Assembly (NCBI GenBank): GCA_001303785.1
Contig: LJUJ01000012.1
Span: 1 to 58,699 of the forward strand
Reading direction: 5' to 3'
DNA length: 58,699 bases
Origin: Caldifarciminota bacterium SM23_42
Lineage (GTDB): Bacteria > Hydrothermota > Tepidihabitantia > SM23-42
Positions within the stretch are counted from its first letter, which is position 1, and each line of letters begins with the position of its first letter. The position numbers and the translations under genes were made by a program. Below, piece by piece: positions 8,568-15,282 of the stretch. Under the pieces are notes generated by a model, which did not search any database, was not told the origin of the DNA, and saw only the letters and a list, made by a program, of their open reading frames with translations.

Positions 8568-11096
8568 CTACGAAGATGTTGTCTTGAACATATCAACCAA
8601 GAATCGGGAAGCATGTTGATAGCGCCCATGACGCCATTTGGGATATAATAGATAGAGTCTTTTCTGCGCACGCGTCAGGGCGACGTAACACAACCTTCGT
8701 TCCTCGGCGATTTCTTTTTGCGATGACATTTTCTTGGTCAGGGGGAAGGTATCCTCGACCAGGTCGACAACAAAGACAACTGGAAATTCGAGCCCCTTGG
8801 CGCTGTGAATAGTCATCAGCTTGACCGCATCCTTACACCAATCGACCAGGTCTAGTTCCTGGATGAGTCGAATTTCGTTCAGGAATCCTGCCAGGTCGTG
8901 ATTCTTGTGGTTGCGCGCCAATGAACTCAGTTCCTCTATGCTGGCGCCTCTTATTCCCGTCACGTCGAGTATGTCTTCGATCAACTTATCTACCCCGATC
9001 ATTCCGAGATTGGTCAGATGATGTTTGAAGACTTTTTCTGCGCGCGGTTGAATTTTTTTAGGGACACTGAATATGCTCTGCGCCTTGCAAAGGAGCCCGT
9101 CGAGGCCATCTTTGCTGAGCGAGCTCCTTTCGAGCAACTCCAAGTATTCGATGAGCGGTTTTACGTCGGCGCGTTCATAAAAAGATGAGCCGCCGATTAC
9201 CTCATGGGGGATACGTGCCTTGACCAGCGCTTCTTTGTAGCCGCAGGCGAGATAGTTCATCCTATAAAGGATTGCGATGTCCTGATGGTTAACGTGCTCT
9301 TTTCTCAGACTTCTGATTTCTTTGACGATGTAATCTGCCTCATCCTGTTCTGATCTCGCGGCGTAGAGAAAAGCCTCGCCAGTGTGTGAACTCGGGATGA
9401 TTGTTGCCTCACGTTGCATTAAGCTGTTGGCAATATCGATTATGCCCTGAGCAAGTCGAAAACTTTTGCTGAGATTAAACATTTGAACATTCCCGTAATC
9501 CTTTGGCACGCGATATATGAGATCACGATTGGCACCCCGCCAGCTGTATATCGCCTGATCTTCATCACCAGTGAAGAATATACGTTTCTTATAGATAAGA
9601 CTGATTAATCTGTATTGTGCCGGACTTATGTCTTGCAACTCATCGACGAATACGTAATCAAAGAGATCCTGGTAGTATCGCCTGATGTCTTCATGATCCT
9701 CGAGCAACCTAACGGAAAGAAGGATGAGGTCGTCGAAATCGATTATGTTCTTTTCGCGCGAGTAATCATGATACTTTTGGTAGACATCCCTGCATGATTT
9801 TTCCCAGGCGTTTTGGGGACTGAATCTCTCCGGGGTGATACCTTTTGCCTTCAGGTTCTCAATGAATCTCGCAATTGCATTCACACGGTATTTCCCGACT
9901 TTAATCTGCATTTCCTGAAGTACTTTCTTGGGTTCGGCGATGATGAAGTCGGTGCTGATATCCAGCCGCTCAGCATCGCGACGGAGTATTCGAAATCCAA
10001 GAGTATGAAACGTACCGAGCCATAAATCATAAGGAGAGAATCCAACACTCTTCTCTAGTCTTTGCTTGATGTCATTTGCTGCCTTGTTGGTGAATGTACA
10101 TACCAGAATATTGGATACTGAAATGCCTCGCTTGATCAAGGCATTGACCGCACTGATCAGGGTAGTAGTCTTGCCACAACCGGCTTGGCCAAGGAGTAGG
10201 ACAGGTTTGTTCAGCGCCCGGAGTACTTCCTTTTGCACACTGCTGAGCCGCACTGTTGTTTCCTTGTTGTCGGTTAATCGAATGCGTCTTACAGCGCGCA
10301 CACCCGCCTCTTGTTTCTTCAATCTTTCCAACAATTCTTCAGCACGGGGGCGCGATTTAGGATCTGGCTTCAAGCTTTCGATAATGATCGCTTCTAAATA
10401 TTCAGGGATCTCATGTCGCAACACACTCGGCGCAAGAAACTTCGCTCTCTCAATTTTGTGTTGCAGCCCATCGAGGCTATCATCTAAAAAGGGCGGTACT
10501 CCTGTGAGTAGTTCGTAGAAAATGACACCTAAACTCCATATATCAGATTTTTCGCTGAAACTGCCAGACCATGCCTCAGGCGCCATGTATATCGGTGTGC
10601 CCGCACTGGATGCTGATATCGTTCCCGACCGGATAAACTTCGCCAGGCCAAAATCAGTTATCTTAACGGCACCCGGTACATTCTTGGCGGTGATGAGTAT
10701 GTTCTCAGGTTTCAGGTCACGATGCAGGACATTATTGCTGTGCGCGTAGGATAATGCGTCGAGTATCTGGATGATGATTTCGGTTGATTGCTTGGCATCG
10801 ATACCGCCTTCAAATATAATATCGCGCAGGTTGTTTCCCTCGATGTATTCCATGACCATGACGAATTTGCTTTCGATAACGTCGATATTATAGAAACGTA
10901 CAATATTGAAATGATCCAAGGAGGCGAGGAGCTTGGCTTCGTCTTTCAGCATCGCAATTTCTTCCTGTCTCATGCGAGATATCTTGAGGGCAAAATCCTT
11001 TTCCAGTATCGTGTCCCGGGCGAGAAAGACATCACCGAATCTTCCACCGCCTAGCCACTGAATAATTTCGTACTTGCCGAGCTTTTTTAACAGCAC
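8568..11096 (-). CDS. Ser/Thr protein kinase fused to UvrD/Rep-type helicase
   Basis: 842 residues, two complete enzymes in one chain. Residues 8-260 are a Hanks-type kinase: glycine loop GGGRFGDV (17-23), Lys38, Glu53, HRDLKPEN (125-132), DFG (148-150) and APE (172-174), all catalytic residues intact. From about 284 an SF1A helicase follows: Q-motif Gln288, Walker A GQAGCGKTTT (303-312), motif Ia CTFTNKAA, motif II DELQD (485-489), motif III GDEDQAIYSWRGA (510-522), motif V from 760 (TIHSAKGLEFPVV) and motif VI near 803 (CYVALTRAQ). The helicase part is about 560 residues, shorter than UvrD, so domain 2B is probably reduced. No membrane segment. Starts 3 bases after the ARPP-1-like gene. No characterised protein of this architecture comes to mind; substrate and role are open. 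Confidence 0.93.
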   Translation of the reverse strand: MLLKKLGKYEIIQWLGGGRFGDVFLARDTILEKDFALKISRMRQEEIAMLKDEAKLLASLDHFNIVRFYNIDVIESKFVMVMEYIEGNNLRDIIFEGGIDAKQSTEIIIQILDALSYAHSNNVLHRDLKPENILITAKNVPGAVKITDFGLAKFIRSGTISASSAGTPIYMAPEAWSGSFSEKSDIWSLGVIFYELLTGVPPFLDDSLDGLQHKIERAKFLAPSVLRHEIPEYLEAIIIESLKPDPKSRPRAEELLERLKKQEAGVRAVRRIRLTDNKETTVRLSSVQKEVLRALNKPVLLLGQAGCGKTTTLISAVNALIKRGISVSNILVCTFTNKAANDIKQRLEKSVGFSPYDLWLGTFHTLGFRILRRDAERLDISTDFIIAEPKKVLQEMQIKVGKYRVNAIARFIENLKAKGITPERFSPQNAWEKSCRDVYQKYHDYSREKNIIDFDDLILLSVRLLEDHEDIRRYYQDLFDYVFVDELQDISPAQYRLISLIYKKRIFFTGDEDQAIYSWRGANRDLIYRVPKDYGNVQMFNLSKSFRLAQGIIDIANSLMQREATIIPSSHTGEAFLYAARSEQDEADYIVKEIRSLRKEHVNHQDIAILYRMNYLACGYKEALVKARIPHEVIGGSSFYERADVKPLIEYLELLERSSLSKDGLDGLLCKAQSIFSVPKKIQPRAEKVFKHHLTNLGMIGVDKLIEDILDVTGIRGASIEELSSLARNHKNHDLAGFLNEIRLIQELDLVDWCKDAVKLMTIHSAKGLEFPVVFVVDLVEDTFPLTKKMSSQKEIAEERRLCYVALTRAQKRLYLLYPKWRHGRYQHASRFLVDMFKTTSS

Positions 11097-11099
11097 AGA

Positions 11100-11960
11100 C
11101 TAGTTAGGAAAAGCTGATAAATGGATTATTTGCTTCTGATGAATAATGCCTTGTCCGGAAAAACCCGGTCCCTTGACGCTGAAGTTTTCTCTTTTGCCAA
11201 CTTTCTTATTCTCCAAGGTTACGATGACTTGGTTCAAGAATTCGGCGACGTCAATTAAACCTCTGTTGTTTTTCTGATATTCTATTGCATCTAGTGCATA
11301 GGAACGAATCAACTTCGTTTCAAACTTACGATAAACAGTCGGGTGAGAAAAGACGTCGCAGCCAAGTATACGGTCGCCTGCGACGCCGATGAAACCAATT
11401 GCCTTGTGATCCAGACTCTGAAATCCTTCGACATACCTTAGTATTTCATCTTCCAGATTATTATAGATGTCGTGCATCGATGAGCTTTGCGAAATGGTCT
11501 TGGTTGCCGTGAGCTTGCGGTCGATTTCGCGCCAGATGACTTGCTGGGTATTGGTTTTCTTCGATGCGAGGAGTGAGCGGAGTCCGGGATAAGAGCAGAA
11601 TCCGGTAGCAAACCCCCCGATCTCGTCCCATCTGCCTTCTTCGGCACAAACAACCGGGATCGTTCTGGACATTCTCGCGGCGATGAGGTTTGAACTGGCG
11701 ATGATGCGGTTTTGCAGTGCGCCAGTCATCTCTTCGCCGTCGAGCACCAGCAGTGGGTAATCTCCTTGGTTATCGAATAATACTTCATTGATGTCAGGAT
11801 TTTCAAGTTCCCTGATCTCGACCTCGCATTTGTCAAATGCTTCATCCAGGGTTGTGATCTTGGGTGTTGTATTGTCGGTAGGATCGAAACTGTCGTACTC
11901 GATCGGATAAGCGATCAGGTTTCTCAAAAAAACCGGGTCGCCCAGGCTAAATCTTTTCAA
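11100..11960 (-). CDS. ARPP-1 (DUF6569)-family protein
   Basis: About 286 residues. The family core is clear: LLVLDGEEMTGALQNRII, then TIPVVCAEEGRW, matching the conserved 'LDGEEL-x-G-x-x-QNR' and 'P-V-x-C-x-E-x-GRW' segments of the ARPP-1 domain, named for association with ADP-ribosylglycohydrolase and rhodanese/phosphatase genes and proposed from gene context to act in ADP-ribose or NAD metabolism. Nothing is known biochemically. The start is uncertain: the frame is open from an ATG at 12050, inside the upstream lipoprotein gene, but the in-frame TTG at 11960, 19 bases past that gene's stop, is more economical. Sits between a lipoprotein and the kinase-helicase fusion. Confidence 0.75.
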   Translation of the reverse strand: MKRFSLGDPVFLRNLIAYPIEYDSFDPTDNTTPKITTLDEAFDKCEVEIRELENPDINEVLFDNQGDYPLLVLDGEEMTGALQNRIIASSNLIAARMSRTIPVVCAEEGRWDEIGGFATGFCSYPGLRSLLASKKTNTQQVIWREIDRKLTATKTISQSSSMHDIYNNLEDEILRYVEGFQSLDHKAIGFIGVAGDRILGCDVFSHPTVYRKFETKLIRSYALDAIEYQKNNRGLIDVAEFLNQVIVTLENKKVGKRENFSVKGPGFSGQGIIHQKQIIHLSAFPN

Positions 11961-11979
11961 TTTGCGCCAGCAAAAGCAA

Positions 11980-12414
11980 CTATGGTGAATACCATGTCGT
12001 AAAATGCCACGTCTCGGTCCAGTCCGTGTACCATTCCCATTCTCGAGCATATGCCCTCAGACGCCAGTAGCGGTGGCCGCCTGTTTCGATCTGGTAGGTG
12101 TATACGGTATCATAGACATTTTCACTGGTAACGCCAGTGAAATCGGTGCTCGTAGATACCTGTAGCTCGTAGTATTCAGTCCCGTCGACGCTACTCCATA
12201 CGAGGTCAAGGTTATTGGGATACGGGTCCCATTGTCCATACCATATGACCGTATCGTTTTCCGGACTAATAGGATTCGGTGCCGCCGGCGGTGGGTACAG
12301 TGAATCAAAAAGAGGTTGGTACTCGTGGGGATCTTTGCATCCCGGATTGAAATTCGCTAGGATCACTATGATGAAAACGGCCATAAATTTGAGCATAGCA
12401 AGACAAACTTTCAT
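11980..12414 (-). CDS. Lipoprotein with fibronectin-III-like domain
   Basis: 144 residues. The N-terminus has a hydrophobic stretch ending NFNPGC, a plausible though imperfect lipobox with Cys at about position 26. A proline-rich linker (LYPPPAAPNPISPENDT) leads to a single beta-sandwich domain of the kind common in cell-surface proteins (LVWSSVDGTEYYELQVS, YRWRLRAYA-type strands), which reads as fibronectin type III. GGAG precedes the ATG at 12414. It lies 13 bases after the TonB-dependent receptor gene, so it may be that receptor's surface partner. Confidence 0.65.
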   Translation of the reverse strand: MKVCLAMLKFMAVFIIVILANFNPGCKDPHEYQPLFDSLYPPPAAPNPISPENDTVIWYGQWDPYPNNLDLVWSSVDGTEYYELQVSTSTDFTGVTSENVYDTVYTYQIETGGHRYWRLRAYAREWEWYTDWTETWHFTTWYSP

Positions 12415-12427
12415 TATTACTCCTTCA

Positions 12428-15025
12428 CTAAAAACTCATACTTATCCCTACACGTGCCCGTCTCGGCTCGCTGTAGGCATTCACCCAGTCATCGGTTGCG
12501 TACAAGAAGTCTCGATAAAGTTCAAAGACTTCGCGCGGGGATATCATCCCATCGTGATTAATATCAGCCGCCGGGTTATATTCAATGGTGCCGATATCCT
12601 CGGTCACGGGCATCGCATAAATGTAATAATCAAGTGTTGATGGATCTATGTCATCCCAGTCGAGCAGTGGTTCATGATACGTGATCTCGTTCCTGATATC
12701 GAGCAGATTTATGATCTCGATGATTGCGTTGATCGAGAATCGACCGAACCTGATTGGCTTTGAAATGACACAATCAACTTGAAACTGATTAGGCAACAGA
12801 TTTATGTTTCTCTCTTCATATTTACCCTCAGGTCCCGGTGGGGTATAAGGAAATCCTTGCCCGATGAAGGCGAAGAGATGCAGATTTGTTTCAAATGGAA
12901 GCCGGGCCGTGCCTTGTACGAATATCTTGTGGCGTTGGTCAAAGTCAAGGTAGTATTCGGTTTTTGGGGGTACGACGGTCGTGTCACCGCCGGTTTGTCT
13001 GATCCACCAAAAATAGGATTCTGCGGCATAAGAACTGGTTCCCCGTGCCCAGGAAAGCGTATACGAAATTTTGCCCCTAAAGACTGTGTTCATAAACTCT
13101 ACTATCGCCTCAATACCTTTGATGTTGGCATATTCAACATTGTCATACTGCCAGTAATCGATCGGCATGGCATTGACAAAACGGGTTCCGATGAGATCAG
13201 ATACATCCTTGTAGAACATATTGAGTGTGCCCACAAGATTCTCGCGTATTTCACCCTGAAAACCTATTTCATAACTGGTTGTCTTTTCCGGTTTAAGGTC
13301 CGGGTTACCAACCGGTGGCAGAAATTCGGCAGTGGCGATATGAGATGGTAAAGGTAGTAGATTATATAGACTATACATATAATCGTACAGCGGTGGTTGT
13401 GCAAAGCGACTGACATTAGCGCGGAAAAGGAATTTATCAGTCACCAAGAAGGAAAAGCCAAACCGCGGTGAAATCATGATCTTGGGTTCGACATCTTCGA
13501 TATCCGCGTCAAAGTAATCGTAGCGGCAGCCGACTTTGGCATACAGACCTTTATAATCAATGTTGTCCTGAAGGTACAGCATATACTCCCTTGGTTTGTG
13601 TTGATACTCGTCGGTAATCGGCGCGGCCGTGTCGCTTACATAATAGGTGAAGTTTTCAAAATCCTGATATGCATACTCGAATCCTGCCTTTATTTCGTGG
13701 TATCTATGTGCCTGTAGGTTGGTGCTGACATTGCCTTTTATGATATGTGAAGTCTTCTCTTGATATTGAGGGTAGTTACCTGAAAAATACGGTGCAGAGA
13801 TGCCGGTAAGAAAGGAACCCTCCCAGACCCCAAATGGATTTGGCGTAGTCGTTCCCGGCCACTGTAGGTTTTGGTAGTCACGAAATCTGAAATTGTCCAA
13901 TACCCCGTATGGTCCCTCTTCGCGGACCCCGTATATCCTTTTGGTATGCAGCCTGCTCAGTGTCATCTTGAATAGACTCTTTGAATTGGGCATGTAACTA
14001 GCGTTGAACACCTCTAGGTCGCTATTCCGCATGTCGGAACGATAATCATCGAGTATATACTTGTAGCGCGTGTCGTAGCGATCAAACTGACTACGTGCTT
14101 TTACCCCACTCAGGGTTATCTGCAGTTTCCCCGAAGGCGAAAAATACCACTTTCCGTATAAGGAATAGTCAGAACGCTGTTTGTGCGGCAAGATGAAGAG
14201 CTTAGGGTTCCAGTCATCCGTATGCATGACGTCGAATGAGAAGAACCCTTTGGCTTTTCGGGAAATTGGGAGGTGAATCGAAGATTGATAGTTCTGATAT
14301 CCGAAATCGTAGTAAAAGGGCATGATCGTTTCGGTTTTTGAGTAGAGCTTACCCTGAACGTTGTTTGCCGGATGGGCAGTTAGCAAATTGATGACGCCAG
14401 ACATGGCGCGTCCGTATTCGGCATCAAATCCACCAGGTAAAAAGATTACTTCATTCACGCTACCCTTCGATACATAAACCGTTGGATCACCGGTTTGTGG
14501 ATCAAGTACCGAGACGTTATCGACCAAGTATAGTACCTCAGTAGCTCTGCCTCCTCGTACGTGAAATGCAGTGTCGGAGCGGACTACTGAGGGCTGAAAA
14601 GCGATTGCGCTCACGGCGTAATCGACAGGCAAGATTGCCAGTTCAGACCTACGGACGATGTAGGTTGTTCCTACCATGTCCTTGGTTACTGAAGGAAGTT
14701 CGCTGGTCACGGTTACCGGCGGTATTTCGATTGCGGTTTGTTTTAGACGCACCATCAGGCGGGCAGTCTGGTCAAATTCTACGATTACATAATCCACTAT
14801 TTGTGTTTGATATCCGAGACAGGAAATCTCGACTCGATATCTGCCGCTGGGTACGTTCAGAATGAAAAAATTACCATCTTGGTCCGTGGCGGCGCCTAGC
14901 TCGGTATTCTGAATCATGACGTTTGCGTAAGGTATTGGTTCACCGGTGTTCTCGTCGGTTACCGTACCTTGAATCTTGCCGCCGGTTGTATTAAAGAGCA
15001 TGATCATTATGCAGAATGGTGTCAT
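12428..15025 (-). CDS. TonB-dependent receptor with carboxypeptidase-regulatory-like domain
   Basis: 865 residues. Residues 12-95 form the carboxypeptidase-regulatory-like (CarboxypepD_reg) beta-sandwich: GKIQGTVTDENTGEPIPYAN and YRVEISCLGYQTQIVD. The plug domain follows (AFHVRGGRATEVLYLVDNV, GGFDAEYGRAMSGVINL), then a long 22-strand-type barrel ending RARVGISMSF. This is the organisation of FCB-group TonB receptors that import large nutrients or metal complexes; the ligand is unknown. A perfect EF-hand-like loop (DINHDGMISPRE) lies near the C-terminus. Start ATG 15025 is preceded by AAAGGAGG; the visible signal peptide is unusually short. First gene of a four-gene operon ending in the kinase-helicase fusion. 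Confidence 0.88.
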   Translation of the reverse strand: MTPFCIMIMLFNTTGGKIQGTVTDENTGEPIPYANVMIQNTELGAATDQDGNFFILNVPSGRYRVEISCLGYQTQIVDYVIVEFDQTARLMVRLKQTAIEIPPVTVTSELPSVTKDMVGTTYIVRRSELAILPVDYAVSAIAFQPSVVRSDTAFHVRGGRATEVLYLVDNVSVLDPQTGDPTVYVSKGSVNEVIFLPGGFDAEYGRAMSGVINLLTAHPANNVQGKLYSKTETIMPFYYDFGYQNYQSSIHLPISRKAKGFFSFDVMHTDDWNPKLFILPHKQRSDYSLYGKWYFSPSGKLQITLSGVKARSQFDRYDTRYKYILDDYRSDMRNSDLEVFNASYMPNSKSLFKMTLSRLHTKRIYGVREEGPYGVLDNFRFRDYQNLQWPGTTTPNPFGVWEGSFLTGISAPYFSGNYPQYQEKTSHIIKGNVSTNLQAHRYHEIKAGFEYAYQDFENFTYYVSDTAAPITDEYQHKPREYMLYLQDNIDYKGLYAKVGCRYDYFDADIEDVEPKIMISPRFGFSFLVTDKFLFRANVSRFAQPPLYDYMYSLYNLLPLPSHIATAEFLPPVGNPDLKPEKTTSYEIGFQGEIRENLVGTLNMFYKDVSDLIGTRFVNAMPIDYWQYDNVEYANIKGIEAIVEFMNTVFRGKISYTLSWARGTSSYAAESYFWWIRQTGGDTTVVPPKTEYYLDFDQRHKIFVQGTARLPFETNLHLFAFIGQGFPYTPPGPEGKYEERNINLLPNQFQVDCVISKPIRFGRFSINAIIEIINLLDIRNEITYHEPLLDWDDIDPSTLDYYIYAMPVTEDIGTIEYNPAADINHDGMISPREVFELYRDFLYATDDWVNAYSEPRRARVGISMSF

Positions 15026-15108: not shown

Positions 15109-15282
15109 TCTCTCACATAGAGGCTCACAGAATACACGGCGCTCCCATTGTATATTAGGCAAAAAAGCCGATATTGTCAAGAAAATTGGGATATATTGAG
15201 GTTGATGAATGAGGGTTCTCGTAAGGATACTATATAATAATGAAGCGAGACATGTTGCGCTGCCGGTTACGCCACTAGAATC

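Follow-up and report, generated by a model that had tools for sequence, protein, structure and literature searches.

An ARPP-1 gene and a kinase-UvrD helicase fusion gene form a co-inherited pair kept in at least four phyla

ARPP-1 proteins were first described by Iyer et al. 2022 (PMC9503650) within predicted conflict systems, and were proposed to be enzymes acting on sugar moieties, perhaps covalently. The contexts reported there are ARG/phosphatase, HIRAN, WYL and deacetylase; "protein kinase", UvrD or a kinase-helicase context are not mentioned in that paper. Hanks-type kinases tied to DNA have been described elsewhere: YabT of Bacillus is reported to be a kinase of this type activated by DNA (PMC3708118, PMC6333020), and a DNA-damage-responsive one is reported in Deinococcus (PMC6052341). 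In the searchable literature, no description was found of a pairing between ARPP-1 and a kinase-helicase, or of a kinase domain fused to UvrD.

The window, i.e. the whole stretch of 58,699 nucleotides analysed here, is a single contig of a 2.53 Mb genome (G000), 97% complete, whose named relatives are MAGs of candidate division WOR-3 / Candidatus Stahlbacteria. The initial annotation had described four genes on one strand, separated by gaps of 13, 19 and 3 bases, and all of this was confirmed, the common strand being the minus strand. In the order of transcription, the genes encode a TonB receptor of 865 aa (15025-12428), a small putative lipoprotein of 144 aa (12414-11980), an apparently cytosolic ARPP-1 protein of 286 aa (11960-11100) and a kinase-helicase, hereafter KH, of 842 aa (11096-8568), in which a Hanks-type Ser/Thr kinase is joined to a UvrD/PcrA-like SF1 helicase. 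The longest ORF for ARPP-1 begins at 12050, within the lipoprotein gene. KH is flanked by ARPP-1 on one side and by a 201-aa gene, on the opposite strand, on the other.

Strong Shine-Dalgarno sequences precede the TonB (ggaggt) and lipoprotein (aggag) genes, whereas none is found ahead of ARPP-1 and KH, which start with TTG and GTG, respectively. The same is seen in most of the relatives inspected, and fits a coupled, lower-level translation of the latter two genes. The one candidate promoter of the initial annotation does exist as a site, TTGACA-17-TAATAT, located upstream of the TonB gene (15180..15152, minus strand) and matching 10 of 12 consensus positions. The evidence for its function is weak, since promoter-like sites across the region are at chance frequency (14 found, 13.1 expected from shuffled sequence), and it is plausible by position only. 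No consensus site for a separate promoter was detected between the lipoprotein gene and ARPP-1, in a scan which itself runs at chance level. A hairpin resembling a terminator, with seven T after it, was also observed at 11933-11945 (minus strand), about 15 bases inside the ARPP-1 coding sequence; such hairpins occur at chance frequency, but this one could possibly act as an attenuator separating TonB/lipoprotein from ARPP-1/KH.

ARPP-1 and KH were searched separately in the same genomes, and gene maps were obtained for 80 loci, by using a simple ORF script on genomes which are mostly MAGs. Among 147 genomes of the phylum, 61 contain both genes, 3 KH only, 2 an ARPP-1 of the KH-associated clade only, and 81 neither (Fisher p 5e-35, calculated by ignoring relatedness; the co-occurrences are not to be taken as independent events). 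Every one of the five exceptions comes from a family in which the remaining members carry both genes, and some are incomplete genomes. At the family level, both genes were found in 19 families, and one only in none. They are adjacent in 37 genomes, belonging to nine families (f1, f2, f3, f4, f8, f10, f28, f29 and f36). The order is swapped, with KH first, in f28 (L146) and f29 (L163), so that adjacency has persisted through this rearrangement. Both genes are present and lie apart in 23 further genomes, from ten families; no third gene recurs near these unlinked KH copies beyond close relatives. G020, whose locus is interrupted by the end of a contig, is left out of this comparison. In family f4, both genes occur in genera g15 and g17, while g19 has neither; the absence of both from g19, although its sister genera possess them, indicates that the correlation does not reflect one single split. 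The two genes are present as a single copy, at a fixed syntenic position in most genera of the family, and whole families carry them in almost every member. ARPP-1 and KH are a true pair, inherited together.

When ARPP-1 was used as query, an adjacent KH was also found in Aminicenantes (L190, L250), in L188 and in two MAGs labelled 'Aquificota' (L194) and 'Thermodesulfobacteriota' (L228), which GTDB assigns to one phylum despite their different labels. A search by KH alone, which is not biased towards ARPP-1, identified KH in four genomes of the phylum holding Aminicenantes, where three other matches cover the helicase part only, in 5 of the 9 genomes of the small phylum holding L194 and L228, and in the sole genome of the phylum of L188. 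ARPP-1 adjoins KH in all 10 of the 10 KH genes found in these three further phyla, and the pairing is therefore kept in at least four phyla. Recurrence of the pair in unrelated contexts, the test originally put forward for a functional unit, is thus observed in nine families and three other phyla.

A tree was built by a quick method from 128 ARPP-1 proteins, with long branches for L125, Aminicenantes and L194/L228. All proteins from KH loci or genomes fall within a single clade, which has 66 members (SH-aLRT 99), and the genes of the remaining 62 are never next to KH; the row L119 is labelled 'noKH', though its gene map shows an adjacent KH. As a negative control, 32 genomes with other ARPP-1 types were searched: none gave a match spanning kinase and helicase, and separate helicases and kinases only were found.

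The identification of KH as a kinase-helicase was upheld by Pfam, the kinase half matching Pkinase (PF00069; 194 bits, 3.5e-57) and the helicase half UvrD-helicase (PF00580; 210 bits, 7.1e-62) and UvrD_C (PF13361; 156.6 bits). The kinase domain (residues 9-257; 10326..11072, minus strand) contains the Gly-loop, VAIK Lys, HRD, DFG and APE motifs of Hanks-type kinases, and its residues K38, D127, D148-F149-G150 and E174 are invariant in 56 homologues. In the helicase domain (residues 286-818; 8643..10241, minus strand), motifs I to VI of the UvrD/PcrA/Rep SF1A type are all present, with G308, K309, T310, D485, Q514, R547 and R809 invariant and E486 98% conserved in the same homologues. Judged by these residues, both enzymes are catalytically intact. 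AlphaFold predicts two folded halves (pLDDT 79, pTM 0.45), joined by a linker predicted to be disordered (residues 265-281; 10254..10304, minus strand; pLDDT below 50); at this pTM, the kinase is not confidently placed relative to the helicase. The nearest solved proteins to the kinase half are calcium-dependent and PknB kinases. Separate UvrD/PcrA-type and AddA-type helicases (types judged from length and score) are also encoded by the window's genome, where KH is therefore an extra enzyme; in G121, KH is the only UvrD-family match.

The ARPP-1 assignment was equally sound: the protein matches PF20208 over its full length (profile positions 3-297 of 297; 6.8e-62; 209.9 bits, against a gathering cut-off of 27). 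Its structure, predicted by AlphaFold2 from 42 sequences, has a mean pLDDT of 92.7 and a pTM of 0.91. No solved relative was found by sequence search, and the predicted fold gave no convincing match within the PDB (best Foldseek E 0.13), a best VIA-align Z of 4.6, over 63 residues of an Ig-like part, and no hit below 0.09 in a viral library. The model may represent a new enzyme fold, a view which the fold searches neither prove nor exclude. We know of no ARPP-1 with a known function, activity or solved structure.

The residues kept in ARPP-1 include G75, E76, G80, Q83, R85, C105, E107, R110, W111, R128, Q139 and W143. Gln83 and Cys105 are invariant in two alignments (A1 and A2), and reach 90% or more in both subsets of the 128 sequences. 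Cys105 (codon 11646..11648, minus strand) is near-universal in all three sets, together with Gln83, Arg85, Glu107, Arg110 and Trp111, and this near-invariant Cys/Gln/Glu/Arg set looks catalytic. The KH-linked clade is set apart by F11, R13, P125, S161 and H163. Residue 161 (codon 11478..11480, minus strand) is Ser in 97% of this clade and Ala in 81% of the other ARPP-1 proteins, and its clade specificity makes it a candidate phosphorylation site; since Ala is found at this position in the Aminicenantes pairs, it cannot be the sole one. WYL-type neighbours recur, by eye, at ARPP-1 loci. In Desulfofundulus (L193, L196), ARPP-1 is followed downstream by an OB+HD protein resembling, by eye, exonuclease YhaM, and then by a WYL-type regulator. 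A second, distant ARPP-1, 25% identical, is present in the window's genome (contig 24:48470-49321; L076, L126); it has an N-terminal extension like a signal peptide, and this exported-looking type forms its own clade.

The initial annotation had linked ARPP-1 to ADP-ribose/NAD chemistry. Both the family name and the published context (PMC9503650) would suit a unit that processes ADP-ribose/NAD, of the kind proposed for the ARG-associated ARPP systems, and is regulated by KH. The ADP-ribosylglycohydrolase on which such systems are centred (PF03747) is absent, however, from 18 of the 19 KH genomes, of four phyla, including the window's, so that the link is unsupported here, and the resulting unit appears improbable.

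The upstream half of the locus behaves differently from the ARPP-1/KH pair. The receptor contains TonB_dep_Rec_b-barrel (PF00593) and CarbopepD_reg_2 (PF13715) domains, the latter N-terminal and CarboxypepD_reg-like. For its partner, the 144-aa protein, neither Pfam nor NCBIfam gave a match; this protein had been annotated as an FN3 lipoprotein, and its N-terminus (..NPGC) is indeed that of a putative lipoprotein, while FN3 was not confirmed by Pfam. Within the window's order (two families), ARPP-1 is preceded by a TonB gene in 22 of 24 informative loci, and by a lipoprotein gene, a homologue located in the gap between TonB and ARPP-1, in 19 of 24; outside this order, no ARPP-1/KH pair is preceded by either. 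A second TonB receptor, 55% identical, was found in the window's genome (contig 24:29332-31932; L279), with a lipoprotein gene 13 bases downstream and no ARPP-1/KH after it. The restriction to one order, together with this second copy, indicates that TonB and lipoprotein are an independent outer-membrane unit, accessory to ARPP-1/KH and located upstream on the same probable transcript in the window's order only.

Two interpretations of the four genes had been offered at first. The better fit is that of transcription running on from an import pair into a regulatory one, as TonB and lipoprotein are also found alone in the same genome. According to the other, the four genes would form one surface-to-DNA module. 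In such a module, a ligand would be sensed or imported by TonB and lipoprotein, which would then signal to ARPP-1 and KH. Short intergenic gaps and the constancy of TonB within the order speak for it, the receptor preceding ARPP-1/KH even in family f2, which has lost the MetK/SahH outer flank and carries additional, inserted genes. The four-gene version is nevertheless confined to the window's order, two members of which (L091, L098) keep the pair without TonB, and the receptor and lipoprotein exist without the pair in the same genome. Ribosome-binding strength, moreover, is sharply different in the two halves, and neither ARPP-1 nor KH shows, by eye, a signal peptide or membrane segment, which leaves no evident route across the envelope. 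We regard such a module as improbable; what holds of the original interpretation is the ARPP-1/KH pair, and not a four-gene unit beyond the window's order.

A role in defence had also been considered. As an anti-phage system, KH would be the effector, acting with ARPP-1, a family which was itself first described in predicted conflict systems (PMC9503650). When PADLOC models were used, the helicase half scored against GajB, and the kinase half against MAD6 and PD-T4-6; PcrA models outscore GajB, ARPP-1 matches no PADLOC model and no nuclease partner is found, and the similarities of KH reflect kinases and UvrD helicases in general. Vertical inheritance, as one copy at a fixed locus that almost every member of whole families possesses, speaks against defence, which we consider very improbable.

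Starting from the pairing, the co-inheritance, the conservation of catalytic residues and the confident ARPP-1 fold, all shown above, we infer a mechanism, and favour it tentatively. ARPP-1 and KH would form an obligate two-protein, chromosomal, vertically inherited unit for the control of DNA transactions, in which the DNA-engaged helicase would fire the kinase and control ARPP-1. By its intact motifs and by what is known of its family, the UvrD/PcrA-like half would bind, where DNA is stalled or damaged, to ssDNA or to a 3' end, and translocate. By analogy with YabT, DNA engagement might join or relieve kinase halves through the flexible linker, so that the kinase fires. ARPP-1 and/or the helicase would then be phosphorylated, with ARPP-1 Ser161 as the best candidate site, and ARPP-1 could have as its target either a sugar or nucleotide end present there, or a nucleotide signal that the same stress produces; it may be a kinase substrate, or work at the same DNA site as KH. 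Besides pairing and co-occurrence, this control unit is suggested by the single ARPP-1 clade, the 0 of 32 matches in the control genomes, the intact enzymes, the disordered linker, the extra helicase and the clade-specific Ser161. Its link to DNA comes from the helicase half only, which counts against it.

The main rival to this reading is nucleotide signalling, in which ARPP-1 would sense or degrade an alarmone or nucleotide second messenger, such as pppGpp or c-di-AMP, and set the kinase, and the helicase would be gated by starvation or stress rather than by a DNA lesion. It is suggested by the frequent location of unlinked ARPP-1 genes of the KH clade beside RelA/SpoT, CdaA and GGDEF genes, a location which suits nucleotide signalling better than an action at DNA ends. 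In f18/f19 (L142, L145, L149, L164, L135, L136), ARPP-1 runs directly into RelA/SpoT, with a 23-base overlap in L142, L145, L149 and L164. In f20/f21 (L139, L150, L159, L160, L162), the diadenylate cyclase CdaA directly follows ARPP-1, at -4 to +1 base, and in f26 (L147, L155, L156, L157) the gene upstream of it encodes a protein of GGDEF-AAA type (GGDEF by eye), about 1050 aa long. In L210, a Rubrobacter MAG, a RelA-like HD hydrolase also adjoins ARPP-1. None of these neighbourhoods, however, extends beyond one or two related families, and each may reflect synteny by chance; ARPP-1, besides, has no recognisable nucleotide-binding fold. Nucleotide signalling seems to us rather unlikely.

The co-inheritance of ARPP-1 and KH suggests that a control system not described so far acts on DNA, the two surface-protein genes being a local add-on to it. 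That this is a form of DNA-stress signalling, spread over at least four phyla, in which a helicase senses DNA and drives its own fused kinase, with ARPP-1 as dedicated substrate or partner, is conceivable but rather doubtful. With a kinase built into a helicase, the state of the DNA would be passed straight on to protein phosphorylation, by an unusual route which the bacteria concerned are not known to use. The function of ARPP-1 becomes directly testable, thanks to a strict partner carrying kinase and helicase, to a candidate phospho-site specific to the clade and to a Cys centre that is nearly invariant.

When compared to known systems, the TonB/lipoprotein pair differs from SusC/D-type pairs on both sides: the receptor scores 69 bits against the SusC model TIGR04056 (cut-off 368), and the 144-aa lipoprotein matches no family, SusD-like ones included. 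Gabija GajAB resembles the present unit in being encoded by two genes, one of them for a UvrD-like helicase (GajB), but KH has no GajA nuclease beside it, is fused to a kinase, and is inherited vertically rather than by mobile elements. The helicase half has all the motifs of PcrA, UvrD and Rep, its nearest solved structure being PcrA (1pjr; 2.8e-85); it differs by the N-terminal kinase, by a variable region before motif V and by a score far below the curated cut-off of the PcrA equivalog TIGR01073 (395.3 against 911.2 bits). YabT and the Deinococcus kinase share with KH a Ser/Thr kinase tied to DNA or DNA damage, a likeness which may be one of functional analogy only; neither is known to be fused to a helicase. 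For ARPP, a covalent DNA-sugar linkage of the SRAP type has been suggested, the hallmark of which is a covalent adduct with an abasic sugar. Also close are the small two-gene units of Iyer et al. (PMC9503650), in which ARPP-1 neighbours HIRAN, WYL or deacetylase proteins and one of which includes a DNA 3'-end binder: they share with the pair described here the same ARPP-1 domain, with its conserved Cys and Gln, whereas the window's genome lacks the ADP-ribosylglycohydrolase, its ARPP-1 belongs to a sequence-distinct clade, and the partner is a kinase-UvrD fusion.
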